Shown here piece after piece: positions 3,299 through 61,493 of a stretch of 64,000 nt of DNA. The translations under genes were made by a program, and so were the position numbers. How positions within the stretch are numbered: position 1 is the stretch's first letter; each line of letters begins with the position of its first letter. The notes under the pieces were generated by a model. It had not been told where the DNA came from. It searched no databases and saw only the letters and a program-made list of their open reading frames with translations. Source of the stretch: Ditylenchus dipsaci (Eukaryota > Nematoda > Chromadorea > Rhabditida > Anguinidae); assembly GCA_004194705.1 (NCBI GenBank), contig SADC01000061.1, positions 242,139 to 306,138 of the forward strand. The letters are read 5' to 3'.

Positions 3299-5747
3299 AC
3301 TCCAACCACCGAAGAAATCTCGACTGCAATACAAAAGGACAAGGCACTGGAGCAGGAATTGTTGGCTGGTACAGATGAGCACGCTTCAACACCAAGGACA
3401 ATAGAAGCTGCGGAAGTGGAGGCTGGCAACACTGCTGTGGACTTAGCCAAAGAAAGAGGTGGTAGCGAGACTCCAATTGCCAATGCGGGGTGCTGCTGAA
3501 AAGACTGACCAAAATAAAAAGACGCTACGACAGTGGAAATTCAGCGTTGTCCTCAGCTAGTGATTTGTGAGTCATTTCTTTAATTTTTGTGTGCTGAATA
3601 TGGTTAATTGCAGCTATTGTTTTAGTGCTCTGAGTGACGAGAAAATGGCTTCTAATTGAGATGGTGACCGCTGAATACAAACGATCTTTGAGGCTGTCCA
3701 GTGACCAGCTGAAGTCTTTAAGGTTGCAATATGGCTCTAATGAAGCTAGATTCAGTATTACAACCAAATTTCAGGTAAGAATCTGTTTATAATAATGAAA
3801 AGGTGGTAAGTGCATACTGAATGGGTTTTCGGGACGAAATGACTGACACGATAACCTTGCGAGTTTGTATTTCACTCGCTAAGAAATTTCGTTTCCTTTG
3901 GATAGGCAATATGCGATTACTGATAAAATTCATTGAGATCTCGGGCCCAAAGACCAACAAAGGTATTAAAATATTAAAAAACCTTGAAAATCATGGAATT
4001 CAAAAAATGCCTTGGTCTAACTGTGCTTTGAAAGACTTTATTAGCTTTTTATCCTAAGTATTAAGTGTATGGTTAAATTCCTTTTTCATTACTCATTTCG
4101 TTTATTTTAGGACAGCCTGGTGTTCTGCCACATATATTTGCTGAAAGTGGGACGAGCAAATAGTCATATCAGACATAGATGGAACCATAACCAAGAGTGA
4201 TGTGTTGGGCCATGTGATCCCGCTATTGGAGGCACTTGGGCGCACACTGGAGTGGCTTGAACTGTCACTATCACTACAATGGCTACCGCATGATCTATCT
4301 GTCATCCAGAGCTATTGGGCTGTCTCACCACACAAACTACTTGAAGAATGTTAAGCAGGGCACCAAAAAGTTGCCTGACGGCCCAGTTCTTCTATCACCC
4401 ACTTCAGTTTTGATGGCTCTTAGAAAGTTAGTTACTTTCTAATTTGTTGAAAAAATGTGTAAAAATTGTTACCTATTGAGAAGTGATCGAAAGGCGTCAG
4501 ATGAGTTCAAAATTGCCTGTTTAAGTGATTTGAAGCCCTCTTCCCTGCCAAACAACCCTTCTTTGCTGGATTTGGAAATAGACCTACTGTAAGTTAACTA
4601 TTATTTTTTTAAATGTTTCTCAAATTTTTTACTATGTAAATAACGAAAGGCTTACAAGGCTTTATCTTTCACTCGGAAAAATTAATAAACATTTGAAAAC
4701 ATTAAAAGCCTTGTAACAAAGCTAAGACTCAGAACTACGAATTCATGTGTCAACGAGAAGAGTATGAAATCAAAAAAATTGCAAATTAGATTATGCGCCT
4801 AAAAAGAGTTTTTTCGTACTAGAAAGAAGTAACAGCGTCTAGAAACGGGCAGGAGTAAGATGCGGCAAATCACATTGCGACAAATCAAATTGCGGCAAAA
4901 TCAACAGTGACCACTTTCGATTGGTCTAAGACCGAAACTATGAGTGTTCTTCCCCGTTATTGTCCATCTCCCACTTAGGAAATTTACTAAAGTTTGCTAA
5001 AGTTTCGCTACATCCGAACACAGTTCTCATTGCAATAGTTGTCGCAATAGATCTTGCCGCAATTTGATTTTGGCGCAGTTTGGATTGTCGCAATTTGAAT
5101 TGTCATAATTTATTTGCGGCAATTTGATTTAAGACGCTATTCGTTTTGTCGCGATGTCATTTGCCGCATCTTACTCCTGCCTCTAGAAACTATATATTTG
5201 AAACTTTTAAATCAAAAATTTTAATTTTTTTTGAAAGAATGACAATAAAGAAAGGAGACAAAAATATTCTTCACCACTGCGCCATACAAACACGTCTACA
5301 AACCTGATAAAAAAGTTTCGGGCGTTAAAAAAAAAACCGTCAAAATGCAAAGACAACAGGCGCTGCGCTGTTTTTGAAATTCGAAACTTCAAATGGCTGA
5401 CAAAAATCAGAACGCAGGAAAAAGGCTAATTTATTATTTAACCTAGTTTTTCCTATCTTCCCTTCCAAAAAATCGTTTGATGTGAGGTTATACGAAAACT
5501 TAATCGTCACTGTAAAGTATAGGAAACACAAACTCAATTAAACTAAATCTCACTCTCATAACAGGATGTCAAATCTTACATGGCAGTGGGCATTCCCCAG
5601 AGAGAATCCTGATTAATCAACCCATCGGAATAGTGTCCAGAGCGGACAGAATTGGCTCACTCCTCCGACTACGCTTCTATGGCAATAACATTTGGACTAC
5701 TATTTCACCTCTATGGCTCCATGAACACATTAACAACACCAGTTTGA
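3299..5747 (+). CDS. LPIN: lipin (phosphatidate phosphatase), C-terminal exons
   Basis: Lipins dephosphorylate phosphatidate to diacylglycerol at the ER and can act as nuclear co-regulators. Exons read about 3299-3566 (acidic linker, not diagnostic), 3625-3774, 4111-4426, 4481-4588 and 5565-5747, with AG acceptors and GT donors. Seen directly: SLRLSSDQ and FSITTKFQ (lipin_C entry), [16 protein letters not shown] with the DxDGT catalytic motif, [34 protein letters not shown], and GNRPT joined across an intron to [11 protein letters not shown]. The end (SSDYASM then DYYF in another frame) resembles the lipin tail. Frame changes occur near 3498, 4230-4260, 4490, 4560 and 5590, and a TGA falls just before the catalytic aspartates. 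Such clean motifs with single-base slips suggest sequencing errors or a very young pseudogene. The N-terminal NLIP half is not in the window. The introns carry a foldback element. Confidence 0.88.
4847..5181. mobile_element. foldback element with TGCGGCAAAT arm repeats, 9-bp target duplication
   Basis: Inverted ends GGGCAGGAGTAAGATGC and GCATCTTACTCCTGCC are flanked by an exact 9-bp direct repeat TCTAGAAAC (4838-4846, 5182-5190). The arms are spaced copies of a TTGCGGCAAATC-like word, more copies on the right than on the left. It lies in the last lipin intron. The 9-bp duplication fits Mutator-like (MULE) transposition. No ORF. Confidence 0.88.
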
Positions 5748-5920
5748 GGATAGGTAGTAATTTGCCATAATCGCAGTTCATTTATAATTTCGATGATTTG
5801 TTCTAGTTTGATAACGCCATGGGGCATATCTGAAATGCATGCAGTAAAACTAGTAGATGAGGACTAGATGAGTATATCCGCAAGAAAGTGAAGTAAGGAA
5901 GAAGAGCCAGGAGGTGAGGA

Positions 5921-7830: not shown

Positions 7831-7854
7831 GGCACTTGTGCACTTGGGGGCCCC

Positions 7855-10989: not shown

Positions 10990-11175
10990 GACTTGGAATT
11001 CAAATTTGGACGAATTGAATTTTGGACGAATTGCATTTTGGGCGAATTGTATTTTGGACAAATTGACTTTTGGACGAATTAGCTTTTGGACGAATTGGCT
11101 TTTGGACGAACTGAATTTTGGACGAATTGTCTTTGGACGAATTGACTTTGAATGAACTGAATTTTGACGAAATGT
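10990..11175 (+). repeat. spaced tandem array, TTTTGGACGAATTG
   Basis: About ten irregular copies of (TTTT)GGACGAATTG with small changes in spacing and filler. It looks like one arm of a foldback element; no inverted partner is present in the window. Confidence 0.8.
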
Positions 11176-12989: not shown

Positions 12990-13582
12990 AAGTGAATTCA
13001 TCAACACCGAATTCATCAACACATGAATTCATCAACACATGAATTCATCAACACATGAATTCATCAACACATGAATTCATCAACACATGAATTCATCAAC
13101 ATATGAATTCATCAACACATGAATTCATCAACACATGAATTCATCAATACACGAATTCATCAACACATGAATTCATCAACACATGAATTCATCAACACAT
13201 GAATTCATCAACACATGAATTCATCAACACATGAATTCATCAACACATGAATTCATCAACACATGAATTCATCAACACATGAATTCATCAACACATGAAT
13301 TCATCAATACACGAATTCATCAACACATGAATTCATCAACACATGAATTCATCAACACATGAATTCATCAATACACGAATTCATCAACACATGAATTCAT
13401 CAACACATGAATTCATCAACACATGAATTCATCAACACATGAATTCATCAATACACGAATTCATCAACACATGAATTCATCAACACATGAATTCATCAAC
13501 ACATGAATTCATCAACACATGAATTCATCAACACATGAATTCATCAACACATGAATTCATCAATACACGAATTCATCAACAA
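12990..13582 (+). repeat. 16-bp satellite GAATTCATCAACACAT, about 37 units
   Basis: A regular array with unit GAATTCATCAACACAT; a minority variant GAATTCATCAATACAC recurs at roughly regular larger intervals, which points to higher-order duplication. Each unit contains an EcoRI site. The period is not a multiple of three and all frames change, so it is not coding. Confidence 0.98.
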
Positions 13583-14330: not shown

Positions 14331-14526
14331 TTAGTCAGAAAGTTATGTTAGATGAATAAGTTATGTTAGAAAAAGTTATGTTAGCTGGCAATGAAATTAC
14401 ATAACTGAAGTCAATGATAGACCTCGGTTCGTTTCAAAACATGTGAAAAAGTGACATTTCCAAGAAATCTTTTTGAATTTCTTGGCGTTTTGTTAATTTT
14501 TTAACCGAGGGCAATTGGGGAGGAGA

Positions 14527-14812
14527 AGAATGGGCCATTTCAAATTGGGCCAGTTCAATTTGGGCCACTTTCAAATTGGGCCATTTCAAATTGAGCCAAT
14601 GCAAATTGGGCCAACTTCAAATTGGGTCAATTCAAATTGCGCCAATTTATTGGCAATTTTTTAACTGTTGTTTGATTCAAAATCGTGGCCCATTTTGAAA
14701 TTGGGCCAATTGGAAAATGGCCCAATGCGAAATAGCGCATTGGCGCAATTTGAAATGGCCAAATTTGAAAATGGCTCAAATTGAATCGTCCCAATTCGAA
14801 ATGGCCCATTCT
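14527..14812. mobile_element. foldback element with AATTGGGCCA arm repeats
   Basis: Left arm 14527-14645 has seven or so copies of (TTTCA)AATTGGGCCA; the right arm 14690-14812 is the inverse. Ends GAAGAATGGGCCATTTC and AATGGCCCATTCTTC are inverted. Flanking GGGCAAT on both sides (14511 and 14823) may be the target duplication. No ORF. Confidence 0.85.
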
Positions 14813-15519
14813 TCATCTCCATGGGCAATCATAGCTCAATAGGCCCCTTGAATAGGCGCTTGCTGCGGGGACCAAGGTAACTCAACCTAAAAGGGTACGT
14901 GAACATCTCTAAAAGACCGTAATTATGATTTCGAATTTTGGGGGCTGTGTACTCGAAACAACTAAAATTTTCAGGTAACTTTATTTTGAAACAGCTCACT
15001 GCTACATACGAAGCAAGAATGTAAGAATGATATAAGAATGATCGAGTCGGGAAATTCTTTTCGTAGCTTGTTCTTCTGGCATCCGTTTGCTGGCACCTAA
15101 AAAACAAGAAACAAAAAGCAAAAAACGGCTGAAAGTATAAGAAAAACTGACCCTACCGGAGTATACACCCCCCCCCCTCCCAAATGAAATTTTTTTAAAG
15201 TGTTTTCAAACATCCTATATCGACCTAAAATTGCCTCAGGAGTTCAAAAAAAGACATAATTTTTGAGTTCTGGTTAATTAAAAAATGAGTTTTGGACATT
15301 TTGAAATTTCGACCATTCGCCTGTTTTGGTCATTGGAGCTGGGCAAAAAGAGCCTCTAAATGCATTTTTGTTCAAGAGTCTTGCTCGGTATTATGTCTAA
15401 GGTAATGCGCCTTCGGGGGCGCAGGGGGCTTGGTTGCTTGGGTTGAGATACGCACACCCACATACCTTAGACGCAAATCACTCGAAAGGGACTTTGGATG
15501 CATATAAAATGTATGCATA

Positions 15520-25107: not shown

Positions 25108-28100
25108 GGTCAAACAATGTTTGCCTCAAAAATTTTGGTGTGGCAGCCGTTCTAGGGTAACTTTTTCAATAATTTATACTTTTCGAAAAGTTCATTTATA
25201 TTTTTAGTTTTCGGAATATTGTCGGGCACAATGCGACACAAAACAATTGATGGGCAACTATTGGTGTGTTTGAAGGGAGAGTTGGACAGGAACTACGGTG
25301 CTTTGAGGAAGAAATTAAGTCGCACACAAGGTACACATCTTCCTTTGCTTGTAAAGGCTTTTTAGGTCCCCCTTTATAACGTTCACGATGATTATTTGTG
25401 TCGCTCATGAGAATTGAGGTCATCCTCTTCTTTATTAATCACTTACGCATTGCACATAAAACTAAATGTCTGGCAAATGTACTTAATTCCAACCCTTTGG
25501 GGTTTTGTATTGCATTTCGTCTAAAAACAAACTACATTTCAGACGTGCTGCTGACTCTTGCTTCTCCCAGACCATAGGAGATGCTAACCGAAATGAGAAA
25601 TGTGTGTTGGTTGGTACTGATCTAGAAGCCAAGGTTAGTTAATTGGTCAGACTGTAGGAGTTAACAATAGAAAACATTCAAGGCCAAATATAGGCCCTAT
25701 AGTTAAAAAAATTTGGCATTGACCAAATTTCAGGCATGGGATCGTAACGGTAACTAATTTACAAATGTTTTGGTTTTATTCAAAAGATTGTTGATTTTTA
25801 GGACCATTGAGGGACTGCTCCATCTGCAGAACGGTAACAGAAATTTTAAAGGGGGGGGGACTTCCTATACGCATCGCTTAGGTCAGAGGTTCGACTACCA
25901 CTGGCTGTAAAACATATTTTTTCTCCTTTATTTTTAAGTTTAGTGTCAAAATGATCCTCACACTCTTGGCTATCCAATAAGACTATCAGCACAGGCTTTT
26001 ACACATGCCGGAGCTTGTAACCAGGCTAAAATAGGCCAAATTTCCAAAAATCGATAGTTTTCGGGGGTTTCTTTGACTGGTTTCACTGAAAATTTCTGAC
26101 TTTTTTCTACAAGTCACAAGTTTCATGCACCAAAATGTAGCCAAGACTCTAGGCTTTCATTTGAGCTATCAAACAGAGAAAAAGTAGTATAAAGTTGGAG
26201 CTAGATTTCTAAAAACATCCACCTGTGTCATTATAGGCGATGCGTATAGGAAGTCCCCCTTTAATTTTTTTCGTCTATACAATATAACAAAAAAATTATT
26301 TAGTTTGCTGCTGTGCCATCAAAGCGGTTGATTTTGCAAATTTTGACATTTTTTTCTGTTTTTCAGTGTAATTTTTCAAGGTTCTCTCTACCCCAGCCGA
26401 AGATCAAAAATGTATTCGAGCACAAATAACCAAAGCTATTGCTCTGGAGGCAGACTACTGTTTGAGAAAAAAGATACCCAACTTTGCTGGCATCCCTGAA
26501 ATTCCTGACTTGGAGGAAGGTATACATAACCACGAGCAATTTTCAAAAAATAAACTTCATTTTTTCCTTTAGGCTCCTTTAACATTCGTGAGGATGTGTA
26601 TGTTCACCTTTCAGTGAGGAATTTGTCTCACCCATTTATTATGATTTAGAATCAACTCCATTTCTGACTACATTCTCATCCATAGTCGGCTTTCCTTCTG
26701 CGGAGAGTAAGTGACTATTTTTCGGGCTTCAAGAACTTAAATTTTGCACTAGAACAAATTACCGTATTCTCCCTAAGAGACGGCACTCTCCAATAGAAGC
26801 GCACACCTTGACGCCAAAACTAGGAGGCGGGGGAGGGTCAGAGAACTGCATTTGGGCACAAGTCCTTACTAAATAGTGCTAATTTAGTGCTTTTTTAGCA
26901 CTTGAAAAAGCACTATTTATTGTAGGCACTAATTTAGTGCCATTGGCACTAATACAGTGCTAGCACAAACTTTGTGTAATGAGCACAGCATAAATGGCGC
27001 TAATTTAGTGCTAAGCATGCTTTAGTGCTAAATCACGTCTCCTTATTATAAAGAATCTTCTAATTCTGATACTGGATTCGTGTCCAGCATACAGTCAAAA
27101 CTCGATTTAACGAAACTCGATACAACGAATATTAGGGTCGGAAGTTCGTTCCCACCTAGGGTCCGACACTTTTTTTACCGTCATTTTTTTAAGCTTTGAC
27201 AAATTTGTTTTGACAGTCTTGTCACAAATATCACAAGAATTTAGATTTCACCGATTATTTTTCGAAAATCCAAATTTTTTAAAGCAAAAACTCGATTTAA
27301 CGAATTTCGATTTAACGAAAACCTGTTTTTTCATCGAGTTTTTGCTTTTTTAGAGAAAATATTATAGGTTTGTAAAAAACGATCGGCAAAATTGGAATCC
27401 TTGTGATATTTGGGACAAGACTGTCAAAACAGAACTGTCAAAAGCTTGAAAAAATGGGCGTAAAGAGGTTTCGAACACGGTAACTTGGCTGGTCACTTGA
27501 ATTTCGTTAAAGGACCCTGTCTCTTCCTTATCATGGCAATTTCAAAGGTTTGAATGCGCGCGGGACCACCTAGATTTTGTCAATAATGTTTTCGAATTAT
27601 TTTTTTGTTTGCATTTGAATTTTAAACGTTATGTTCTAGTGATTATAAATCACATGACAACAGTGAAAGATATGGAGCAGTGAAAGTCGTTTAAGCTTTC
27701 CGATCTGTCATTGTCAAGCAAAGTTGGGCTCGACTAGTGATTGGTTCTAAATTTTGAAAAAATTTACTGAATTTATTTTCTAAACAATAAGCAGAAATAA
27801 AAACAATTTGAAACTATTATTGACAAATGTGTGTGGTCCCGCGCGCATTCAAACCTTACAAATTCCCATGATAAGAAGAGACAGGGTCCTTTAAATCGAT
27901 TTTCAACTGCAGTCGATTTGCATACAAAAATGTTCTCCGAATCCGGGTACTAAACGCTTGACCGTCACCATTTTGACCGTCACCATTTTGACCGTCAGCA
28001 TAATTTGACCGTCACCATTTTGACCGTCACCAATTTGACCGTCAGGAATTTTGACCGTCGTTTATATTTGACCGTCGTTTAAATTGACCGTCACCATTTT

Positions 28101-30155
28101 GACCGTCAGCATAATTTGACCGTTGCCATTTTGACCGTCGTTTGAATGTGACCGTCACTATTTTGTCTTTGGTTTTGTTTAAGATATTTATTTCGTGAAG
28201 CTTTACTTATTATTTCGTCTTCAGGCTACAAGATGAACAACGATTTCGATAGCTACGATGAAGCGGAAAATATATCCGAGTCTGAGAATGGTGAAAGCAG
28301 TGATCTCGAAAGAGAAGATGTGCAAAGCGTGCTGCGAGTCGAACCAGAAGTCGAGCTTAAATGGGTCAATTCTACTCGTAGTGACAAAAGCAAGCCGGTC
28401 TATGAAGGAGCGCTCTCTCATTCGATGCATATTCCAAAGATGAAAAGCTTGCTTTTATAAATGCGATCAGTGGAAGCAAAATGTGTCTATATCTCGTCAA
28501 AGCAAGCAATAAGTTATGTTCCGTTTTGGGTTTCATGTGGGTCATTCTGCTTCTCCTTGGCGTCCTACGAATGCTATGGTGCGTGATGAGCAAGTTCGAC
28601 TTATTACAGCATTCGCTGATATGGTAACCTTTGCCGAATTTATATTCCTTCAGGACTGGGTGAACGGTGTCATTAAACCAAGGAGGGTTGAAGATGTGAA
28701 GCGGACGGACGAATATTGCTCCAAGGTAATCGGTGGTCGGATGTCGATCCAAATAGACTGAGTAAGAAAGAATGGTGTCAGGGAGTTGTGTTGGCGTTGA
28801 AAGATGTTTGAAATGTTGTTAAACGGTTCAATAAAGTTACGGTGTTAGTCAAGTTTTATCGTCTTATTTAGTAATTGTTAGCCTGCGTTGCAAAAATGCA
28901 TCAAGATGTGTGATTCGATCGTTATCTGTTCAAAATTCCTGACGGTCAAAATGGTGACGGTCAAAATAGTGACGGTCACATTCAAACGACGGTCAAAATG
29001 GCGACGGTCAAATCATACTGACGGTCAAAGTGGCAACGGTCAAATTTAAATGACGGTCAGTTTAAACGACGGTCAAATATAAACGACGGTCAAAATTCCT
29101 GACGGTCAAATTGGTGACGGTTAAAATGGTGACGGTCAAATATGCTGACGGTCAAAATGGTGACGGTCAAGCGTTTAGTACCCCGAATCCAAAACTCCAC
29201 AAAATTTCAATTTCCTCTCAAGACAACAAACATTCAAATTCGAATTTAATAAAATTTTATGGAAAAAACGAAAATTGCGCAGATTTGGGGAAAAAGTGCC
29301 CAGTGTATGCGAAAAAATGGCCACTTCTTTGGTTTTGTGGCCAGTTTTCGTGAAAAAGGCCTCAGTTTTTAAAAAATTTGTCCAGTTTTAGTGAAGATAT
29401 GCACAGTTTTTGGCACATGTGTCGACTTCTGGATATACTGTGCTCAATAGAGTATGATGTATTTCTTTTGCCTAAGATGAAGCGTACTGTCTAAAGCTGA
29501 AACAGAAGCAGATTGATGTTCTATCATACGGTAGCCAAAATATGCAGACTTAGTCTTTAATCTAGATAATTATCACCGAACTGGACACATTTTGAAAAAC
29601 TGGGACCTTTTTCACGAAAAATGGCCACAAAACCAAAAAGTGGCCATTTTTTCGCATACACTGGCACTAACAATTTTATTGCATTTTTAACCTTAATTCA
29701 GAAAAATTTCGGGGTTCAAAAGATAGACGAGACTTGGTACCTAGAGCCGATTGGGCCAATTTTAGAGGTTATTTTTTTGTCTAAAAATTCTAAAGATGTG
29801 TTTACATACAGTCACAACTCGATATCGTATACATCCTGGGGAACGGCTTCAGGTGTAAACTATATCGAATTATACACTATATCGGATGTACACTATACCG
29901 AGTTTCGACTGTAGTCTCACAAATAAGTTCATGAAAATTTTTCGTGAAAACCAATTCGCCAAAGCAGTTTTTTAAATTTGGCTGATGTATAGCAATTCAA
30001 GCTTTTTGCATATTATTTTCATTGAAAATTCAACATGTTAAACAATGTTCATTATTTTCAACAGAAAATTTGTAGACGCAAGCCAGAGCGAGCTATTAGC
30101 ACCAGACAGTGTTTGAAGACCCCTTTCAATGGATTTATGCAAAAACATTGCTCAG
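25108..30155 (+). CDS. Cys-rich, probably secreted protein gene (unrecognised)
   Basis: Exon-like pieces 25108-25156, 25208-25332, 25543-25634, 26367-26519 and 26573-26706, possibly 30065-30155, join at GT-AG borders with matching phase. Reading gives a Cys-dense N-terminal part (QCLPQKFWC, EYCRAQC, NYWC, RCFEEEIK), then RAADSCFSQTIGDANRNEKC, a helical KAIALEADYCLRKKIPNF segment, and SPIYYDLESTP. One extra T near 25270 and one slip near 26605 are needed to keep frame. A small piece at 25802-25833 has exon borders but a stop in the expected phase. No start codon with signal peptide is visible; it may lie upstream. The Cys spacing suggests disulphides and export, but no family is recognised. 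Confidence 0.5.
25846..26272 (+). repeat. dispersed repeat (inverted partner 56030-56430)
   Basis: Begins near GGGGGGGGGACTTCCTATAC and carries GATTTTGGAAATTTGG-type words and CACAGGCTTTTACACATGCC. The same block runs in reverse at 56030-56430. It lies in an intron of the Cys-rich gene. No coding. Confidence 0.7.
26762..27035. repeat. TACCGTATT solo end and GCACTAATTTAGTGC palindrome cluster
   Basis: 26760-26800 begins like a TACCGTATT family terminus (TACCGTATTCTCCCTAAGAG) without a partner. 26870-27030 is built of the palindrome GCACTAATTTAGTGC and variants (GCACTATTT, GCACTAATACAGTGC), six to seven times. Confidence 0.75.
27092..27909. mobile_element. CAGTC-type (pogo/Tigger-like) element, interrupted
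   Basis: Left end TA-CAGTCAAAACTCGATTTAACG; right end CGTTAAATCGATTTTCAACTG appears only after the 27511-27890 insertion is taken out. The inner word GTTCGTTCCCACCTAGGGTC and GTCCGACACTTTTTT are shared with 34190-34375 and 60290-60712. Confidence 0.85.
27511..27890. mobile_element. TTAA-flanked MITE nested in the CAGTC element
   Basis: AGGACCCTGTCTCTTCCTTA and its near-perfect inverse are the ends, with TTAA at 27507-27510 and 27891-27894. Inner words GGTTTGAATGCGCGCGGGAC are inverted too. 380 bp, no ORF. piggyBac-type target. Confidence 0.92.
27945..29183. mobile_element. foldback element with TTTTGACCGTCA arm repeats
   Basis: Ends GGGTACTAAACGCTTGACC and GGTCAAGCGTTTAGTACCC are inverted and flanked by CGAATCC (27938-27944; 29184-29190), a probable 7-8-bp target duplication. 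Each arm holds 12-14 copies of the fixed word GACCGTC with fillers ACCATTTT, AGCATAATTT, GTTTATATTT. The centre (28190-28860) carries an apparently expressed short gene. Confidence 0.9.
28233..28761 (+). CDS. small acidic protein carried by the foldback element (unrecognised)
   Basis: ATG at 28233 opens MNNDFDSYDEAENISESENG and an acidic N-terminus, then WVNSTRSDKSKPVYEGAL. After a shift near 28420 the frame continues FDAYSKDEKLAFINAIS; a further overlapping frame is 28516-28761. The acidic 'M-N-x(5)-Y-x-x-x-D-E-A' start resembles that inside another foldback element (50613, MNLEDRYSSPDEASS). Function unknown; possibly the remains of an element protein. No catalytic motif seen. Confidence 0.35.
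29195..29800. other. no supported gene
   Basis: AT-rich. Two stretches (29270-29400, 29580-29660) are inverted relative to each other around CACAAAACCAAA and GGCCA words (AAAATGGCCACTT), so this is another loose palindrome. The open frames here are not convincing. Confidence 0.5.
29809..29911. mobile_element. CAGTC-type MITE, 103 bp
   Basis: TA-CAGTCACAACTCGATATCG and TATACCGAGTTTCGACTG-TA. The inner word ATATCGTATACA and its complement replace the ATTTAACG word of sister copies. Confidence 0.88.
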
Positions 30156-30199: not shown

Positions 30200-30660
30200 A
30201 ACTTGCCTGCACATAAAGGTATACCAACAACTGGATAAACTTACGACTGGATACAACGGCTAGATACACAAAAAATGTTTATGTGGGATAAGTCCCAGTG
30301 ACGCGCGAATTCTGGCAAAACATATTAAAAAAATATTTCAGACGATACTTGGGCATGCCCACTTGATTGTTTTTTGAAATATTTGCTCAAACCTAATTTA
30401 GAGACCTAAATTTGGTCAAAATAACTGAAAATGATTTACAACTATATACGGGCGCAGGGTAGCCCAGCGTATGTTCGGACGAGCTCAAATATGTTTCCCA
30501 AACTAAGAGGCATCTTTAAGTCTGTTTTGCATCTAAGCAGAATATGTATGAAAAAGTGTATCCAGTCGTTGTATCGAGTCGTAATTGTATCTGGTCGTTG
30601 TATTCAATCGTAAGTTGTATCTAATCGGAGGGTAGTCGCACATAAACCCGTATCAATCAA
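30200..30660. mobile_element. foldback element with TGTATCxxGTCGT arm repeats
   Basis: Left arm 30220-30265 (ACTGGATAAACTTACGACTG, GGATACAACGGCTAG) is inverse to the longer right arm 30545-30640 (GTATCCAGTCGTTGTATCG, then AGTCGTAATTGTATCTGG). Ends are less clear than in the other foldback elements. Confidence 0.65.
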
Positions 30661-30927: not shown

Positions 30928-31318
30928 TAGGACTAACCCAGAGCTGGTGAATGGTCGTACATGTAGCCATGACCTAACCTTCCTCAAACTCAGAGATTGC
31001 ATTTTCAGCCTCGGTTTAAAGGGAGATTTGTGATTTTACCGGCGAGCTTTCGATTGCGGATTTCCATATGCGGATTCCACATTTGCGGATTTCACATTTG
31101 CAGAATCCACTTTAGAGACTCCAGAATTGCGTATCCACATTTGCGGATTTTCGCATTTGCGGATTTCACATTTGCGGATTTCCAAGTGCTGATTTTTATT
31201 TGCGGTTTACATATTTGCGGATCTTTTTTTGCGGTTTCAGCATTTGCGGATTTTCTTCTGCGGATTTCCACTATTTTCGGATTTTTATTTGCAGATAGCA
31301 AATTTTTGGTAAAGGGAC

Positions 31319-32122: not shown

Positions 32123-32151
32123 CATTAACACTCTAGAGTATATCTTTATTA

Positions 32152-33372: not shown

Positions 33373-34189
33373 AGAGATCCCAGTTATCAAATCCTTTGTT
33401 CATTAGGCGGAATCGGAGGGATTTCAAATGGGACAGGGTTTCGCTTGCGGTAGGTGTAAGAATAGCGTCATACGTCAATATTAGGTCTCTGATCGCTTAA
33501 TCTGTTGCTTGAGCTCGATTAGAGCGTAGACGGACCAACAAGCCTTCAGTTAGATCAATATCATATTCTCACAACTTCGTTTCAGCAATTTGTTCTTCTT
33601 TTTAAATAATTCCAATAGATCTAAAAATAAGTAACTTATGGCGAAGGAAGGTAGAATTGAGTAAGCATATGTAAATCCGCAAATGCAGAGTACGCGTGTA
33701 AAAAATCCGCAAAATTTGAAACTAGAGTCCGCAAGTGAATAATTTGCATCTGTGCAATCCGCATTTAAAAATCCGCGAATGTACAGCCCGCAAACGTGGA
33801 ATACGTCAAAAAAATTCGCAAATGTGCAATGTGCAAGTGTAAGATCCGCAAGTGTATATCCGCATATGACAATCCGTAAATGTGGAATCCGCATGAAAAA
33901 TCCGCAATCGAAAGCTTGCCTTTTTCTCATTGATAGTCCAAATTCTTGGCTTAAAAATGAATTTTAAATTGCCCATGGTCGAATATTGAATTGAAGATCA
34001 AAGAAAAGCGGATAAATAAAGGCGCAAAAAAGACCATTGCGAAACCCTGAGTAAAATATATTGAAAGAAAAAAATTACGTCGCACCTCCTTCAGGAAAAA
34101 GTCAAATTTGGCGAGTGAAATAATAATATGAAATAATCGACCGTCACAAATAAACTATTTGGTTATAAAAAAAGTAATGAATGCTAATA

Positions 34190-39829: not shown

Positions 39830-40582
39830 TTTTTCTGCCCGCTTTTAACTTTTTCTGCCCGCTTTTTTGAGTTTATGTTAGAAAAGGTTTTTTCTGCCCG
39901 CTTTTGGCTTTTTTCTGCCCGCTTTTATTTGAAAGTGCCCGCTTTCGCTAAAAAGTGACCGTTTTTGTTTAAATGTGAATGTTTCTCAGTTTCGAAACAG
40001 GGAAAACTTATTATTGTTGCCGAAAGAGTGATTATTGTAACCGAAAAACTTATTTTTGTCGCCGAAAGTTGTTCTCGACACGAAATCAGCAATTTTTTAA
40101 TTTTTTTTGGTTATTTTCGTGTGAAATTCAGGGGTGGGCAAAGACCAGATGGCTGGAGACCCACTCCGGAATGGCCAAAAGGCCAAAATTATTGGTTTTG
40201 CGGGGGTATGCTAAAGGGGAGTAAACTTTTCGAGAAAAATCGATTAAACGGATCAGATTTTGGGTCGGATCGGCTTAATCGCTCAGAATCCTAGGATTAT
40301 GGTGGTTTTGAGCGGTTCAGGGTGGATTTATGGGCGATTAAATCCGGTCGGACCGGAAATCTGATTTGCTCAATCAATTTTTCTCGAAAAGTTTACTCCC
40401 CCAAATAAAAATAAAATAAAAAAGCGGGCATATTTAAACAAAAGCGGGCACTTTCGTGAAAAAGCGGGCAGAAAAAAGCCAAAAACGGGCACTTTCGAGC
40501 AAAAGCGGGCAGAAAAAATCTTTTCTAACATAAACTCAAAAAAGCGGGCAGAAAAAAGCTAAAAGCGGGCAGAAAAAAATTC
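39830..40582. mobile_element. foldback element with TTTTCTGCCCGC arm repeats
   Basis: Left arm 39830-39965: TTTTTTCTGCCCGCTTTT repeated with an AGTTTATGTTAGAAAAG spacer; right arm 40425-40582 is its inverse including the same spacer. The centre contains hairpin family copy 3 (40195-40400), with CGATTAAACGGATCAGATTT and a shared GCTCAGAATC. Confidence 0.92.
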
Positions 40583-50612: not shown

Positions 50613-50740
50613 ATGAATCTCGAAGACCGATACAGCAGCCCTGATGAAGCGAGCAGCTGTGATGCGAGTGAGCAAGGATCATTGGAGGAAGAGGAAATGA
50701 GGGCTGTACCCCGAAATTTAAGCGGCATTTTGCTAAGTGG
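50613..50740 (+). CDS. small acidic ORF start in foldback element (unrecognised)
   Basis: ATG opens MNLEDRYSSPDEASSCDASE, then an EEEE stretch, and runs into the TTTGCTAAG array, which supplies meaningless codons. The start resembles that at 28233 in another foldback family (acidic, M-N..., D-E-A). May be the remnant of an element-encoded protein whose body was replaced by the array. Confidence 0.3.
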
Positions 50741-51504
50741 TCGATTTGCTAAGCGGTCGTTTTGCCAAGAATTTTTTTTGTTAAGCGACAAATTGCTAAG
50801 AATTTTGTTGTTGAGGCGCCCATTTGCTAAGAATATATTTGCTAAGGCATTCTTTTCTTAAATCCCGATTTGTTAAGAACTTTTCTGCCTTTTTGTACTT
50901 TTCCTTTTTCTCAATGTTCTGGTAGGGGATTAGAGATTTTTCCGACGGTCATTTTTCGGCCAATTTTTTTTTGTTTTTTACTGATTTGAATATGGGATCT
51001 AGGTAAATTGATATTTTCAGATTGTGTCCAAAGTACCACAAACCATTCTAAACCACCTCAAGTACCCTAAAACCACCTAAATACCCAAACCAAACCAAAC
51101 CTGAAAGATTAAAATTTCTTAAAAATAAAAAATAAGCCATTTTTTCTAACTTAAAATTGTGTGGGAATTGGGTTTGTCAAGCCCAAAGTTGCGATTTTAC
51201 ACACTCCAACTTCAATACCTGGTGTAGGTATCACCTGACCAGGTGGATGCCCACCTGGATGTCTTAAAAATCAAAAAGTTCATTTGAATAAAAAAATCTA
51301 TTTTCCCAACCAAAAAAATTTGTGAATAATTGGACTTGATGAGACCAAAGGTGCGATTTCACCTACCCGATCCAAATCTAGGGTTGAGTACCACCTGGAC
51401 AGGTTGTTATCCAGGCAACTCAAAAGTAGGGGTATATTCACCCAAATGACCTGAAAGGTCAAACGTTAGTCTTTTTATATCTGAAATTACGGTAAAAAAT
51501 AAAG

Positions 51505-51905
51505 TGTGCACCCAGGTGGATTCGAACCAGCATCCTCGGCGGTGGCTATCCAAGTGGTCGTCCACTTGGATCAAAATTTTTTTTACGTTTTCGGTTTCCA
51601 AATCATTTTTTCTGCACTAATTCGAGCACCCTGAAAATGGTTTGACAGTGGTAAAATCACGTTTTATCAAGAAATTTTGAGTTATCGTGAATTCTTGATT
51701 TTGATAAATCAATCGTTAGCAATAACTCTAAATTTATCGATAAAACGTGATTTTACCACTGTCAAACCATCTTCAGCATGCTCGAATTAGTGCAGAAAAA
51801 TTGTTTTGGAAACCGGAAACGTAAAAAAAAATTTTGATCCAAGTGGACGACCACTTGGATAGCCACCGCCGAGGATGCTGGTTCGAATCCCTCTGGGTGC
51901 AATCA
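51505..51905. repeat. palindrome with tRNA-like B boxes in both arms
   Basis: Arms contain GGTTCGAATCCAC (minus at 51520-51535) and GGTTCGAATCCCT (plus at 51880), GCCACCGCCGAGGATGC, then CCAAGTGGTCGTCCACTTGG, and in the centre TTGACAGTGGTAAAATCACG. 54285-54620 is a related copy. Confidence 0.8.
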
Positions 51906-52242
51906 GTCCAGAGTAGGAGACCCGATTCAATTAAAACCGTTTTTAGAACATGATTTTGGATTGAATCGTTTGGGTTTTAAGGTCTGTACCCCGAAATTAA
52001 GCCGAACTAAAGAAGATGTAGAAGATGTATAAATTTGTCGAGAAATCTGGATAAACCTATTTATTGATGAATTAAATATTGATAAAACTATATATTTTTT
52101 AAAACTTCATTCTGCCAAACCGTTTTGAAACAAATTAATTTTTTTTCGAAATCCGGTTTTCGAAGAATTCTATTTTTTATGAAACCCGTTTTTTACGAAT
52201 TCCCTTTAAAATGAATCAATTTTTTATGAACCGTCGTAGCGC

Positions 52243-52815
52243 CTATAGAATGCCCCCCCCCAGCTAGCGAAAAATTTACTTTTCCTGAAGGGGAAAGGAC
52301 CCGTCTAACTCTCAAGCCCCTCTCAAGCTCTAACTCTCAAGCCCCCTGCGCCCCCGAAGAGGGCGCAGGGGCTTGAGAGTTAGAGATGCGCGCACTCACT
52401 TACCTTAGACATGATTCCGAGAAGTACTCTTGACCATAAAATGTATATAGAGTCTCTTTTTGCCACGGCCCAGTTGAAAAACATGGCAGGACATCCGAAG
52501 TAGTCCAAAATTCACTTTTTATAATTTTGCCATGAAGGTGGCCCTTTTTATTCCCTTCCCTCCCAATACAGCCCTAAATCCCATAAAAAAAAGTTTTGGC
52601 GGGAATTCAAAAAAATATTTTTTTGAATTTTCTTAAATTTTTTACCTTGGGGACCAAGGCAAATCGAAAAAAAAAATTTTTCGATTTTTCGGAAACCAAA
52701 GTGTTTCCGTGCCTATTCAGAGCACGAGAATCAAAATGAGACGGGTCCTTTCCCCTTCAGGAAAAGTAAATTTTTCGCTAGCCGGGGGGGTGGGGGGGCA
52801 TTCTATAGTGTTACC
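52243..52815. mobile_element. palindromic element with structured core
   Basis: Ends CTATAGAATGCCCCCCCC and GGGGGGGCATTCTATAG; arms CTAGCGAAAAATTTACTTTT and AAAGGACCCGTC, inverted. The core at 52320-52470 has the GC hairpin GCGCCCCCGAAGAGGGCGC and CACTTACCTTAGACATG, one side only. The foldback element 50374-52242 inserted into its left end, duplicating CTATAGAATG. Confidence 0.85.
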
Positions 52816-53397
52816 CCAATTTTTTTAGGATATTGATTTTTTTGGTGCAAATCGAATCTTTTTTTGGTGTAAATTAGATCTTTTTTGGTGCGAATATTTT
52901 TTAGGATTTCGGTTTTGCGTTTTTCTATTAACTTTTTCAACAAGTGATAACTAGGGACCCAAATTCTATGCACTAAAAAATGCGAAATATGCGCATAAAA
53001 TATGCGCTAAAAATGCTTAAATATGCGCTAAAAACGTAAAATATGCAATATAATTTTTAGACTAAACCTTTTAAATGTACCGCATAAAATTTGTGAAGAA
53101 TCACTATGACCAAAATTGGACATATGGCTTTGCTGAAGCAAGGTGTTTTAACCTAGGGATTAATTTATTTGACTTCAGTATTTAATTTATTTGACGTCCA
53201 TTTGGGCTCTAGGTGAATTCGTCCACGGTGAATTCGTCCACAGGTGAATTCGTCCACAGGTGAATTCGTCCACAGGTGAATTCGTCCACAAAAATAAAAT
53301 TATATTTTTCGGCTGTACCGAAAAAGGTAAAGGAATATTTGGTAAAAGGCACATTTGGTAAAGACACATTTGGTAAAGGCACATTTGGTAAAATTTC

Positions 53398-54225
53398 TGG
53401 CTAAAGTTTAGAATGTGACCTTTTTCTAAAAATGGTCAAAATCAGTTTTTTTAGTTGTGTAACATTGTAAAAAATGCTCAGCATTCATTTTTATTGTTGG
53501 GAAAGCCAATTTTTCAAAAAAAAAATCATGGTTTTTTAGTCAAAATTTGAAAAATTTAAATTGGCGCCTTTTGAATTTAAAAGGGAATAAGGGCTGTATT
53601 GGGAGGGGAGGGAATAAAAGGGGCCACTGATCACACAGGGCCCACTAACAAGAAGATGTTGAACATAGTTTTGAATACTGGGGCCTACCGCATAAATAAA
53701 CTCTGGTATGCATGCTTTTTCATGCATCCAGAGTCACTTTCGAGTGATTTGTGTCTAAGGTATGTGGGTGTGCGCATCTCAACTCCAAGCCCCAAGCCCC
53801 TGCGCCCCCGAAGGGGCGCAGGGGGCTTGAGAGTTAGAGATGCGCGCACTCACTTACCTTAGACATGATTCCAAGAAGTACTCTTGATCAAAAAATGCGT
53901 ATAGAGTCTCTTTTTGCCACGGCCCAGTTGAAAAACATGGTGAGGCAGTCGAAGAATATAGATATTCAAATTTATAATGTTCTGCCATAAAAGTGGCCCG
54001 TTTTATTCCCTTCCCCTCCCAATACAGCCCTTATTACCTTTTAAATTCAAAAGGCGCCAATTTAAATTTTTCAAATTTTGACTAAAAAACCATGATTTTT
54101 TTTTTTGAAAAATTGGCTTTCCCAACAATAAAAATGAATGCTGAGCATTTTTTACAATGTTACACAACTAAAAAAACTGATTTTGACCATTTTTAGAAAA
54201 GGTCACATTCTAAACTCCAGCCAAA
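53398..54225. mobile_element. 830-bp nested palindrome with structured core at its centre
   Basis: From outside in, both arms carry AGAATGTGACCTTTTTC, AAAATGCTCAGCATTC, then CATGGTTTTTTAGTC, GGGCTGTATTGGGAGGG, and core words CTAAGGTATGTGGGTG / CACTTACCTTAGACATG, with the GC hairpin CGCCCCCGAAGGGGCG at about 53812. Centre positions of all pairs agree within a few bases, so it is one palindrome. Confidence 0.9.
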
Positions 54226-54284
54226 TTTCTTTTGGTAAAGGCACATTTGGTGTTATGCTTTTTTCACGTTTTCGGGTTCCAAAA

Positions 54285-54620
54285 CCACTTTTCTGCACTA
54301 ATTCGAGCATCCTGAAGATGGTTTGACAGTGGTAAAATCACGTTTTACCAAGAAATTTTTAAGATATTGCTAATTGTTGATTTATCAAAATCAATCGTTA
54401 GCAATAACTCAAAATTTCTCGGTAAAACGTAATTTTACCACTGTCAAACCATCTTCAGGATGCTCGAATTAGTGCAGAAAAGTGGTTTTGGAACCCGAAA
54501 ACGTGAAAAAGAATTTTTGATCCAAGTGGACGGCCACTTGGTTTGGTCACACTGCATGATGGGGTTGTTAGTAATTCTAAGGGTTGATTTAGGTCGCTGG
54601 TTCGAATCCACCTGAGCGCA
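54285..54620. repeat. inverted repeat with GACAGTGGTAAAATCACG and tRNA-like B box
   Basis: CGAGCATCCTGAAGATGG on the left and CCATCTTCAGGATGCTCG on the right, arms ~95 bp; GGTTCGAATCCACCTG at 54599. Related to 51505-51905. Confidence 0.8.
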
Positions 54621-54989
54621 TACCTTTTTTTTACCATAATGAAAGATATAAAAGCAGGCGTTTGACTTTTCAGGTCGTTTGGGTGAATTTACCACTACTC
54701 TGGAGTTACCTGGATATCAACCTGTCCAGGTAGTAGCCACCCCAGGTTTGGAGTTGGGTAGGTAAAATCGCAAAAACAGTTAGCCATAAAATTCACAGAA
54801 TGAAAAGCATATATACGCTAAAAAAAATTTGAACAATCAAATTGGAGAAATAACGCCAAATTTTATTTTGTGGACGAATTCACCTGTGGACGAATTCACC
54901 TGTGGACGAATTCACCTGTGGACGAATTCACCGTGGACGAATTCACCGTGGACGAATTCACCGTGGACGAATTCACCGTCGCCCCCCAT

Positions 54990-56469: not shown

Positions 56470-57623
56470 CAGTACGTTTCATAATTTTACAGGCACCCCC
56501 TTTTTAGGTGTTTAGTGACATTTTTAAAGAAAATAAAAAATCTGTCTTTACAGAAAGGATAAGCATAGTCGATAACCTAGTAATTATGCAAAAATATTTG
56601 GGGTGTTGGGTTATGAAAAAAAATATGACAGAAAATTCAAATTTCCACCGTTTCACAATTTTACAGGCAGTTAGAGTAAGAAGATTTATTTATAACATAA
56701 TTCTCGTGTAATCTCAATTTCAAGTTATTTATTTGTAAGCCCTCTTCCTTAGCTACAACTCGGTAGGTAAAACTTATTTGTTCGATCATTCCTGAAAAAG
56801 TTATGACCATCAACATAAAAGCGTCGATTTCCAGTCAAATAAAGGAAAATCTAAGAAAAATGACTGTTTAGCCACATAAATACTAGCTTTTTCAAAAAAA
56901 TGTCGATGAAAAGATAACATCTAATACACCATTCGAAAGCTCTTTGATTTCTCTACATAATGTCATGTTGACTGTTTTTTTATAAAAATACAGGGCTGAG
57001 AAACGGGCGGTTGAATTTCGATAAGACAAAACAGGCTAAAAATAAGGCAAAAAAAGGGGTTTTTTATTTTCTTAACTTCAACCGTCCGTTTCTCAGCCCT
57101 GTATTTTTATAAAAAAACAGTCAACATGACATTATGTAGAGAAATCAAAGAGCTTTCGAATGGTGTATTAGATGTTATCTTTTCATCGACATTTTTTTGA
57201 AAAAGCTAGTATTTATGTGGCTAAACAGTCATTTTTCTTAGATTTTCCTTTATTTTGACTGGAAATCGACGGTTTATGTTGATGGTCATAACTTTTTCAG
57301 GAATGATCGAACAAATAAGTTTTACCTACCGAGTTGTAGCTAAGGAAGAGGGCTTACAAATAAATAACTTGAAATTGAGATTACACGAGAATTATGTTAA
57401 ATAAATCTTCTTACTCTAACTGCCTGTAAAATGTGAAACGGTGGAAATTTGAATTTTCTTTCATATTTTTTTTCATAACCCAACACCCCCAATATTTTTG
57501 CATAATTACTAGGTTATCGACTATGCTTATCCTTTCTGTAAAGACAGATTTTTTATTTTCTTTAAAAAATGTCACTAAACACCTAAAAGGGGGGGGGTGC
57601 CTGTAAAATTATGAAACGTACTG
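56470..57623. mobile_element. 1.15-kb near-perfect palindrome with TA-flanked ends
   Basis: Ends TA-CAGTACGTTTCATAATT and AATTATGAAACGTACTG-TA. Arms of about 540 bp are nearly identical inverted copies around a ~75-bp centre; inner arm words CAGGGCTGAGAAACGGGCGG and CCGTCCGTTTCTCAGCCCTG. Differences are a few substitutions and homopolymer changes. TA target and CAGT ends suggest Tc1/mariner-type mobilisation. No ORF of note. Confidence 0.93.
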
Positions 57624-57854: not shown

Positions 57855-58095
57855 TAAACTCCAGTGATGCCAATAAGTGCAAAAAAGTGCACGTGCAATT
57901 TCAAAAGTGCACGTGCACTTTTACATTGCACATGCACTTTTGAAACTGCATGTGCAATTTCAAAAGTGCATGTGCAATTTGAAAATGCACGTGCATTTTT
58001 GAAAATGCACGTGCATTTTTGAAACTGCACGTGCATTTTTTGAACTGCACGTGCACTTTTAAAGGTGAATGTGCATTTCTAGTAATTTTTTGTGC
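57855..58095. repeat. AAAGTGCACGTGCA spaced array
   Basis: About 14 copies of TGCACGTGCA or TGCATGTGCA separated by A/T fillers, in both orientations. Each full copy contains the palindrome CACGTG (E-box type). Same architecture as foldback arms. Confidence 0.85.
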
Positions 58096-59065: not shown

Positions 59066-60129
59066 TGTAATGAAGGTTAAAGAATGAAATTAAACTCCCG
59101 AAAAACCAACTTGGCCATTTCAGAGTGGGATTCTGAGCAAACCAAGTCCTTTTCTGACCATAAAATTTGAATTTCCGCAAAATTTTAAAAACTACAGGCA
59201 GAAAAAAAGGCTGTACGAAGTTTCGTAACAGGACAATTTCGTAACAGCGAATTTTCGTAACAGCGAACTTTCGTAACAAATTTTTTCGTAACAGACATTT
59301 TCGTAACAAACGTTTTCGTAACAGCGCATTTTCGTAACAAACATTTTCGTAACGGCGAATTTTCGTAACAAACTTTTTCGTAACAGCAATTTTTCGTAAG
59401 AAACTTCTCGTATACTTTTTCAGTTTTCAAATTTTCACTAACTATGCGGTCTCTTCTTTCTCTTAGTTCATTTTTGTAATCCACCCTCAATCTTCCCTAT
59501 ATGTTCTTAGTGGTCTTTATTTACCCTTAATGGTCTTTAATGGTCACGATCCGCCCTGAATGGTCCTGATCATCACTCAACAGTCTTGATCCATAATCAA
59601 CGGTCCTAATCAACTCTCAATGGCCTGATCCACGCTTAATAGTTCTGATCTCGCCTTCAATGTCTAAAATCTTTCAGATATTCTCTTCGCTTATGTGGGT
59701 GTCCAGTACGTGAAAATTTCTCCTGCTCTCAAAGCTATCTGAATCTTGGATATGTTAAATAACTCTATGAATAACATAACTTATCTGAAATTTGGGTGAT
59801 GATGGGCATTGTGAATTTTTTTGGCTTTTACACCCCAAGTAAACAAGAGGAGACCCACTTGGTCGGAATATATCAATAGAAACTTATAACTTATTAAAAA
59901 CCAAGCTGAAGATAACTAAGGGAAGATTCCGTCAAAACACGTCCAACAACTAACCTTCCTCATCAGATAATCTGATTTAACTTCGACTTTTCACAACACT
60001 ATTTACCACATTTACTCAACGGAATTCTTTATTTGAAAACAAGAAAGCACTAGAGAGTGCTTTTGGAGTAACAATAACGAAAGGCGTAAACAATAGAGAG
60101 TTACGAGAAATTCTGATTTCAGCAGCGAT

Positions 60130-61125
60130 TCACCCATCAAAGCCGTAGAGAATTCTGCCTTGGCGCTTCAGAGCATAGACCATATCCATAGCGGTGACCT
60201 AAAGTAAGACGATGAACCACTGAGATGAGAACTTTGGGTGAGTAATAGGCGGAAGTAACCGTTGTAATTAGCAACAGAACCTTGGAATACAGTCGATTCT
60301 CGATTTAAGGACACCCCAAAAGTTCGTTCTCCAGCTGGGTCCGACACTTTTTTTAGCTCGATTTTCGAAGCCTTTTTAAAATTCTGTTTTGACAGTCTAG
60401 TCGTAAATATAGCAAGGATGCCGATTTTGCCGATCGTTTTTCAAAATCCAAAAACTTTTTCTTCTAAAAAAGCAAAACCTCGATTTAAGGACAGGCTTTT
60501 TCTAAAATCCCTGTCCTTAAATGGAGGGTTTGCTTTTTTAGAAGAAAAAGTTTTTGGATTTTGAAAAACGATCGGCAAAATCGACATCCTTGCGATGTTT
60601 GCGACCAGACTGTCAAAACAGAATTTTAAAAAGCTTCGAAAATCGAGCTAAAAGAAGTGTCGGACCCAGCTGGAACGAACTTTTGGGGTGTCTTTAAATC
60701 GAGAGTCCACTGTATTGCCAAAACTTCAGGGGTCCTGGCAATTGTGGAGGCATAACAACGTGAATATAAGTGAAAACTGAAAAAAGGATCTTTCAGGTCA
60801 AGAAATGCCCGAGACCCTTAAGGTTCTGGACTGCAAAACTTCAGAGTATCCTAGTTGTATTCGAAAGAGGTTATTAAATAAGGCAATAAACATACTGTCT
60901 TGCGCTTGGTGCGCTGCGAGTTTCTTCGTAGATGAGGCCAGAGATGCGCTTGACTCCAGCTCGACCGGCAAGACGACGGATAGCAGGCTTCTTGACCCCA
61001 GAATGTTGTCGCGCAGAATCTAGAAGACAAACATCAGGATCAGTGGTGAAGAAAATGATAAGTCAATTACCTTGCGATGACGCTTGGATCGACCTTGCCG
61101 AGTCCTTTTCCACCGTTGCCACTTC
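60130..61125 (-). pseudogene. histone H4, intron-bearing and internally deleted
   Basis: Minus-strand exons 61071-61125, 60896-61019 and 60130-60198 with GT-AG borders. They encode GSGNGGKGLGK then KRHRK (after a 1-base deficit), [32 protein letters not shown], then directly KRKT, and in the last exon VTAMDMVYALKRQGRILYGF and DG-stop. Canonical H4 has about 21 residues (second half of alpha 2 and loop 2) between EETR and KRKT; these are absent, so a histone fold cannot form. The start codon is missing: the first exon is preceded by a TTCCAG acceptor 10-12 bp from the element arm. Substitutions (RLAGRAG, GFDG) show divergence from typical animal H4. Introns in H4 are unusual. A captured gene fragment is the best explanation. 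Confidence 0.85.
60290..60712. mobile_element. CAGTC-type MITE in the H4 intron
   Basis: TA-CAGTCGATTCTCGATTTAAG and TTTAAATCGAGAGTCCACTG-TA, about 420 bp. GTTCGTTCTCCAGCTGGGTC and CCGACACTTTTTTTAGC are shared with 27092 and 34190. The module ATTTAAGGACA replaces ATTTAACG. Confidence 0.93.
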
Positions 61126-61493
61126 CTGGAATAAGCTGTTACGGAAAATTTTGTTACGAAAATTTGCTGTTACGAAAATGTTCGTTACGAAAATGTTTGT
61201 TACGAAAATGTTTGTTACGAAAATGCTTGTTACGAAAATTCGCTGTTACGAAATTGTCCTGTTACGAAACTTCGTACAGCCGAAAAAAATAGAAAAAGAG
61301 AAATCTACGGGCAAAAACAAATATTCTACGGCCATTCAAAACCTACAGGCAAAAAAAACCGATCGGCAAAAACGAGTATTGTACGGGCAAAAAATATTAT
61401 CCAGAAAGAATTCGATTTGCACCAAAAAGAATACTATTTGCACCAAAAAAATTCAATTTGCACCAAGGCGATTTGCGGCTACCAGACAATTTC

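Follow-up and report, generated by a model that had tools for sequence, protein, structure and literature searches.

Foldback elements with word-array arms in Ditylenchus dipsaci: probable Mutator-like transposons with lineage-specific, putative recognition words

The arms of the Drosophila foldback element FB are inverted, long and variable in length, and some contain tandem repeats. In the nematode Ditylenchus dipsaci, a stretch of 64,000 nucleotides (GenBank assembly GCA_004194705.1, contig SADC01000061.1, positions 242,139 to 306,138 of the forward strand; hereafter "the window", to whose own numbering coordinates refer) raises the question why several foldback elements lie so close together, each with arms built from many copies of a short word of its own. 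We consider it likely that these arrays belong to Mutator-like element (MULE) transposons with foldback ends and to their non-autonomous derivatives, with recognition words that are lineage-specific and arms that are rewritten upon a shift of specificity. According to the proposed mechanism, each arm would be a tandem row of putative transposase-recognition words, mostly held in a 14–17 bp register and ending in GG adjoining an 8–10 bp target duplication. Full elements would encode a MULE transposase between the arms, with a FLYWCH zinc finger in one of three clades, while short elements, such as those of the window, would lack a transposase and depend for their mobilisation in trans on an element carrying the same word. 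Each transposase lineage would have a word of its own, and a specificity shift would entail rewriting of that word in the units of both arms. This would explain the density of foldback elements in the window, and it touches two open questions, namely why some transposons bear long rows of short terminal repeats and how a transposase avoids being shared by, or shut down jointly with, its relatives.

MULE genes between matched inverted arms

The 227-Mb assembly (1359 contigs) yielded 115 matches to the MULE domain (PF10551; best 150 of 504 candidates scored), from which 30 loci were cut out. At 19 of the 30 loci, a MULE gene is enclosed by a matched pair of inverted word arrays within approximately 3.2 kb, in contrast to 0 of 30 control loci with Tc1-type DDE_3 transposases, although nine of the latter hold some array (Fisher P 5e-8 versus MULE). 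The shared transposase between the arms, which the first-pass annotation of the window had proposed to look for, belongs at these loci to the MULE superfamily. The filler between the words, described there as variable, does vary in sequence, but its spacing is not free, since 348 of 361 array steps at the MULE loci measure 14–17 bp (140 of them 15 bp). Of the 16 paired MULE elements, 11 have GG ends beside an 8–10 bp target duplication, versus 2 of 240 mismatched flank pairs. The outer ends are of two slightly different types, GGGTACACG and GGGACACGG, on the two sides of an element. The inverted arms are long and composed of short direct repeats in variable number, as is typical of foldback elements, and at the MULE loci a MULE domain between the arms is combined with a duplication of 8–10 bp, as is typical of the MULE superfamily; the MULE-linked elements are, hence, categorized as Mutator/Foldback elements.

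At locus L019, Pfam identifies both a FLYWCH domain (2.6e-10) and a MULE domain (1.6e-10), and the matches of its protein include Ditylenchus MULE proteins as well as proteins combining FLYWCH with MULE from insects and one mite. The top protein matches of the transposase fragments come from Ditylenchus dipsaci itself (55% and 61% identity). A tree of the MULE core comprises three groups, A with 19 loci (support 0.42), B with 9 (0.88) and C with 5 (1.0); a FLYWCH-like domain is found upstream of MULE in 19 of these 33 loci, which are exactly those of clade A.

Words of the window recur at such loci. TTCGTAACA forms the matched pair around the MULE gene in L016 as well as short arrays beside that in L017, TTTGCTAAG is found on both sides of the MULE gene in L090, and TTTGGTAAAG on one side of that in L091. 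The remaining window words are without a MULE gene and, therefore, their assignment to MULEs rests on architecture; they probably share the superfamily.

Six MULE matches of equal score and open-frame length (G000:C13:256941-257183 and those on C281, C347, C1154, C1161 and C1162) are candidates for recent activity. The match on C13 sits between inverted arrays of GACAWWWCACCGC.

Window elements and the polarity of their arrays

In the window, chains of exact 7-mers at steps of 13–18 bp or double steps were taken as arrays. With four or more units, 14 such arrays were detected, versus none in ten third-order Markov shuffles; at three units, there were 32 arrays versus one summed over the ten shuffles. 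The arrays at 4847 and 39830 lie outside the 14, being too short, degenerate or of long period. The common architecture that had been claimed for at least ten elements or arms holds for six elements, in which the inverted arms consist of a family-specific word with a period of approximately 15–17 bp, in one case approximately 20 bp, and with few or degenerate units in the elements at 4847 and 39830. It is weak at 30200 and is reduced to four degenerate words at 11338, while the array at 57855 is a palindromic tandem repeat. The two-armed elements, to which no strand is assigned, are the following, with that at 31041 given as probable:

4838–5190: foldback element (4847–5181), word TTGCGGCAA; 9-bp target duplication TCTAGAAAC at 4838–4846 and 5182–5190
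14509–14829: foldback element (14516–14822), word AATTGGGCCA, period 15–16, inverted words; 7-bp flank repeat GGGCAAT
27937–29190: foldback element (27945–29182), word GACCGTC; 8-bp target duplication CCGAATCC
31041–33920: probable foldback element, word TTTGCGGAT; left arm 31053–31296, right arm 33675–33920; ends GGC(G/A)AGCTTTCGATTGCGGA
39830–40575: foldback element, word TTTCTGCCCGC, period approximately 20; 4 forward and 3–4 reverse words, one mismatch allowed
53205–54985: foldback element, word GAATTCGTCCAC; arms 53211–53290 and 54869–54979; 5 forward and 7 reverse words
59201–61289: foldback element (59209–61281), word TTCGTAACA; 12 forward and 9 reverse words; 8-bp flank repeat GAAAAAAA of low complexity
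30243–30627: weak two-armed element, word GTATCxxGTCGT; three words in one arm, one full word in the other

Because the word of the 4847–5181 element is nearly its own reverse complement, little weight can be placed on its counts (4 forward, 3 reverse); the case is carried by the matching ends and the 9-bp duplication. The 27945–29182 element contains 12 forward and 13 reverse exact copies of GACCGTC, and three protein pieces from its interior gave no Pfam match. For the TTTGCGGAT element, the first-pass annotation was right in assuming two inverted arms but missed the second: no reverse word occurs within 31043–31300, and the arm lies at 33675–33920 instead. A target duplication was looked for by eye in this element and none was seen, nor did a search find one at 39830–40575. 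At 53205–54985, the 7-bp sequence CCATTTG is a possible duplication by eye, while ranking by longest shared flank favoured another 7-mer. The longest shared flanks at the element ends amount to 9 bp (4847), 8 bp (27945 and 59209) and 7 bp (14516), while those of two further elements were equivocal.

Seven window words were followed throughout the assembly by strict two-word patterns, counting same-word arrays no more than 5 kb apart as neighbours; the matches entered were the first 100 of 301 for TTCGTAACA, 88 of the first 100 of 357 for GGACGAATTG and the first 100 of 199 for AATTGGGCCA. Among the matches listed, 61 of 65 neighbour pairs are inverted, with one polarity per word. This concerns 17 of 17 pairs for GAATTCGTCCAC (window element included, all of the same polarity, with 34 of 34 arrays paired), 19 of 19 for TTCGTAACA, 9 of 9 for GGACGAATTG, 3 of 3 for GACCGTC and 11 of 14 for AATTGGGCCA; with 1 of 1 and 1 of 2, respectively, TTGCGGCAA and TTTGCGGAT offer too few to judge. 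For AATTGGGCCA, two-word matches genome-wide number 117 in forward and 82 in reverse orientation, the reversed-pattern control giving 0 and 0. The TTTGCGGAT pattern gave 53 matches versus 8 in its reversed control, and its sole genomic neighbour pair (on C1157) has a polarity opposite to that of the window element. An additional word, GACAWWWCACCGC, has 686 matches (control 0), with neighbours inverted in 15 of 15 pairs among the first 100 of these, and its step series 16, 17, 15 was found again at three loci.

The expectation of many copies per word with inverted partners and target duplications is, thus, borne out for several words, five of the seven searched having 3–19 inverted pairs. For these five words, with at least three inverted pairs each, the polarity contradicts an origin as satellite or minisatellite DNA of the ordinary kind dispersed at random, which was ruled out for the main words and which we regard as hardly credible for the arrays in general, even though many arrays genome-wide stand alone and the tandem arrays at 12993–13581 and 57883–58075, for which no partner was found in the window, remain satellite candidates. 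The former consists of 37 near-perfect copies of the 16-bp unit TGAATTCATCAACACA and may be either a satellite or an arm that has over-expanded, as in L092 (699–2149), where one arm of a GACCGTC element has grown to 87 GACGGTC units and the other has approximately 12. The latter is made of a palindromic word in tandem copies of 20 bp, so that an inverted partner would be meaningless.

The TTCGTAACA element at 59209–61281 carries a piece of a host gene:

60133–60987, minus strand: histone H4 gene fragment; residues 33–57 at 60910–60987, residues 82–103 at 60133–60198

The H4 identity of both pieces was settled by PDB sequences, while Pfam gave no match for the 30-residue H4 piece. A 251-base probe over the H4 part has 41 genome matches (best 40 of 54 candidates scored). 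At 17 loci the match extends to probe base 251 with 92–100% identity; the others, except for the second piece of one of the 17, stop by base 219 with at most 90% identity and are probably H4 genes. All six of the 17 that are on contigs in the arm listing sit between inverted TTCGTAACA arrays. Since there are 17 full-length copies and the listed ones lie inside TTCGTAACA arms, the captured fragment has been multiplied together with the element, in the manner of Pack-MULE-like capture, where a host-gene fragment between terminal inverted repeats (TIRs) is multiplied. Mobilisation of such short elements would occur in trans. Between the two H4 pieces there is also a hairpin (60372–60633) with 130-bp arms that are 93% complementary.

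Further word arrays of the window have a single arm or are short:

10996–11171, minus strand: single arm, word CAATTCGTCC read inward (GGACGAATTG on the plus strand), period 16
50729–50877, plus strand: single arm, word TTTGCTAAG, the word of L090
53338–53392, plus strand: short array, word TTTGGTAAAG, the word of one arm of L091

The words at 10990 and 53208 have the core AATTCGTCC in common. Repeats of another make are present as well. A large palindrome at 56521–57568, with arms of 127–182 bp that are 98–100% complementary, lies near the palindromic-word array at 57883–58075 and seems to be a hairpin element of different type and recent origin, and nested inverted repeats (80–98% complementary) at 51352–54772, including a hairpin at 54260–54510, fall partly within the GAATTCGTCCAC element. 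A scan of the window with Rfam gave nothing at gathering scores, and one open reading frame of the window is 100% identical to a Ditylenchus dipsaci protein over 16% of its length.

Words, transposase lineages and word change

Among 31 MULE loci, 17 different inward words were distinguished (by eye and with chosen anchors, some on 4–7 units). The relation of word to transposase was assessed for the 32 of 33 loci that have arrays, L029, which has none, being dropped. The mean cosine of word spectra is 0.76 within transposase clusters (26 pairs) and 0.10 between them (470 pairs), and word and transposase distances are correlated (Mantel r 0.50, P 1e-4, 17 representatives). Hence, each family has its own word, as anticipated, and the words track the transposase lineages. 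Within a clade, words may have flanks in common around a central block that differs, e.g., CGTTT-GAT-CGAAAA (L009), CGTTT-GTT-CGAAAA (L010) and CATTT-CCC-CGAAAA (L018), or TTT-CG-TAAC (L016), TTT-GC-TAAG (L090) and TTT-GG-TAAA (L091); other words of clade A (L020, L028) do not conform well to this scheme.

Two pairs of close elements differ in their words almost uniformly. L011 and L036 are approximately 90% identical over most of the element and in 79 of 82 positions of the MULE core. The word of L011 is TTCTGTCC in 18 of 18 units found and that of L036 is TTCTTTCC in 23 of 24, the remaining unit having TTCCTTCC, with a search pattern that allowed only such variants; the fillers partly retain their order (combined P 0.009). 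L025 and L027 are identical in 77 of 81 positions of the MULE core. In L025, a 1-kb element and therefore probably a deletion derivative, the words are A-rich in 16 of 16 units (14 starting with AAAA, 2 with ATAA), while L027 has ATTT in 9 of 9 units, three of them on the short right arm. Five consecutive left-arm fillers of this pair show two bases different in all, with identical steps (16, 17, 16, 15, 17); equally close permutations number 6 of 2520 for the fillers and 24 of 2520 for the steps. In the MULE-core tree, L025 and L027 are sisters (0.895) within a group that includes L026 and L035, both with an A-word, and because of this nesting the T-word of L027 is probably derived. In addition, the left arm of L093 contains both TTTGCTAA and TTTGGTAAAG words and may represent a word change under way.

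Tentatively, and as a possibility that we rate somewhat below even, we suggest that a specificity shift rewrites the array, i.e., that a central block of 1–3 bp is altered across the units of both arms, with spacing and filler left as they were, that this change is directional and selected, and that the genome consequently holds a series of mutually independent transposase-site pairs. The flanks around the changing block would be otherwise constant (CGTTT-NNN-CGAAAA, GACA-NNN-CACCGC, TTT-NN-TAA). We infer that the word is the binding site of the transposase and that selection drove its rewriting.

Neutral concerted evolution would account for the arms in another way, by homogenisation through unequal exchange and gene conversion, with the word being merely the common part of the repeat and having no binding role. 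We regard this as unlikely. It is in line with the highly variable number of units per arm (e.g., 87 GACGGTC units in one arm of L092), with the roughly equal divergence of word and filler between close copies, and with the filler order that the left and right arms of one element have in common (P 0.013, 0.0018 and 0.0022 in three elements), from which it follows that the arms may convert each other. In both L025/L027 and L011/L036, however, the word differs in nearly all units whereas the unit-specific fillers and steps are largely kept, and steps hold at 14–17 bp while sequences differ. Re-amplification of a single unit would have carried its filler along; as copying one unit would, thus, spread the filler too, selection for a matching site combined with conversion between the arms fits better.

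A number of results weigh against recognition words of MULE transposons that are rewritten upon a specificity shift. As regards the MULE genes, a complete pair within 3.2 kb is missing at 11 of the 30 loci, L029 has a MULE gene without a matched pair within 8 kb, and no FLYWCH match was obtained at 14 of 33 loci (clades B and C), where the domain may be split by introns or be absent. As regards the arrays, many have no inverted neighbour in 5 kb, GAATTCGTCCAC excepted; among the matches listed, at most 38 of 66 arrays are paired for TTCGTAACA, 18 of 60 for GGACGAATTG, 6 of 18 for GACCGTC, 22 of 58 for AATTGGGCCA, 2 of 35 for TTGCGGCAA and 2 of 43 for TTTGCGGAT. Shared flanks of at least 8 bp occur somewhere in the same stretches in 72 of 462 mismatched pairs, and are, therefore, evidence by virtue of their location at the element ends. 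As regards the words, their correlation with the transposase is expected from common descent, because both reside on one element. In all 28 family pairs, FLYWCH has diverged further than MULE, in keeping with the variable DNA-binding domain that had been predicted, but FLYWCH identity and word similarity are uncorrelated (r 0.006, 28 pairs of clade A; r 0.27 for MULE identity), and FLYWCH identity was dropped as a predictor of the word. Between close copies, changes affect 62 of 918 word positions versus 56 of 1178 filler positions (Fisher P 0.056, in the opposite direction). The first-pass annotation had proposed words that are under selection or homogenised; simple conservation does not speak for the former, and the idea of words as strongly constrained sites was abandoned, this test having given no excess conservation. 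Four rows of the two switch pairs contribute 44 of the 62 word differences, and their post hoc removal leaves 18 of 736 versus 41 of 971. These pairs are two among 12 compared and were spotted first and then tested, and the filler-order tests are weak to moderate (single arms P 0.11 (left arm), 0.03 and 0.034; the combined value for L011/L036 as above).

Only TTCGTAACA, TTTGCTAAG and, on one arm, TTTGGTAAAG tie the window to a MULE gene, and four MULE and two FLYWCH queries gave no match within its 64 kb. The short elements of the window might, thus, belong to several unrelated superfamilies that converged on repetitive arms, like the P-type Galileo, with only some being MULE-linked. No MULE gene is tied to TTGCGGCAA, AATTGGGCCA, GACCGTC, TTTGCGGAT, TTTCTGCCCGC or GAATTCGTCC (among the best 150 of 504 MULE candidates scored), the AATTGGGCCA element has a flank repeat of 7 bp, and the period of TTTCTGCCCGC is 20 bp. 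Most window elements, however, have the same period, inverted polarity and G-rich ends, three have flank repeats of 8–9 bp, and matched flanking arrays are found at 0 of 30 loci of DDE_3, the only other superfamily searched; such a mixed origin is, in our view, improbable, if somewhat less so than neutral homogenisation. Given MULE transposons with lineage-specific words, a single genome would offer many related transposases beside their own presumed words, with close pairs differing by 1–3 word bases in nearly every unit, for a direct test of the binding-site role and of the residues that determine specificity.

Relation to known Mutator and foldback systems

Tm1, a Mutator/Foldback family of Meloidogyne, has TIRs composed of variable numbers of a 13–15 bp unit, target duplications of 8–10 bp, mostly 9 bp (45 of 53 elements), asymmetric outer ends, a FLYWCH and MULE transposase termed Phantom-like, and non-autonomous members, one group of which carries a histone hairpin motif (PMC3169594). 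The elements described here resemble it in nematode host, repeat-unit arms, period, duplication size, FLYWCH-MULE protein and slightly unequal outer ends, as well as in having non-autonomous members, among them one with histone sequence, a parallel that may be coincidental. However, Tm1 is one low-copy, decaying family with one unit sequence (PMC3169594), whereas here 17 MULE-linked words and near-uniform word differences are present.

The Muta MULEs of Aedes aegypti comprise 14 families with target duplications of 8–9 bp and FLYWCH in 13 of them; 10 of 12 long-TIR families have subterminal tandem repeats of 9–15 bp, and derivatives carry host-gene fragments (PMC5225508). Muta1, which transposes in yeast, has 12-bp repeats with 3–4 bp spacers, giving a period of 15–16 (PMC5225508). 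Period, target duplication, FLYWCH and host-gene fragments in derivatives agree with our elements, while in the available account the repeats were not analysed as binding sites and the change of the unit across families was not followed (PMC5225508). For the Phantom clade of MULEs, FLYWCH in some members, 8–10 bp duplications, TIRs of 18–613 bp and minisatellites in aphid members are described; its host list, in the part available, is without nematodes, which the text nowhere mentions, a Trichinella sequence being placed apart (PMC6446971). Of the N-terminal FLYWCH finger expected of a Phantom-type MULE, matches come here from the 19 clade A loci among the 33; at the other 14, introns may split the domain or it may be lacking. 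Galileo, too, has long inverted arms that vary in length and in some cases contain tandem repeats, together with a P-type THAP transposase (PMC4168063), unlike the arms described here, which surround MULE genes.

No report of a word change such as that between L011 and L036 or L025 and L027 was found in the open-access literature searched. The architecture itself is of the known Mutator/Foldback type (Tm1, PMC3169594; Muta, PMC5225508); what is added is the variety of words within a single genome, the tracking of the transposase tree by these words, and the near-uniform word change between close elements.

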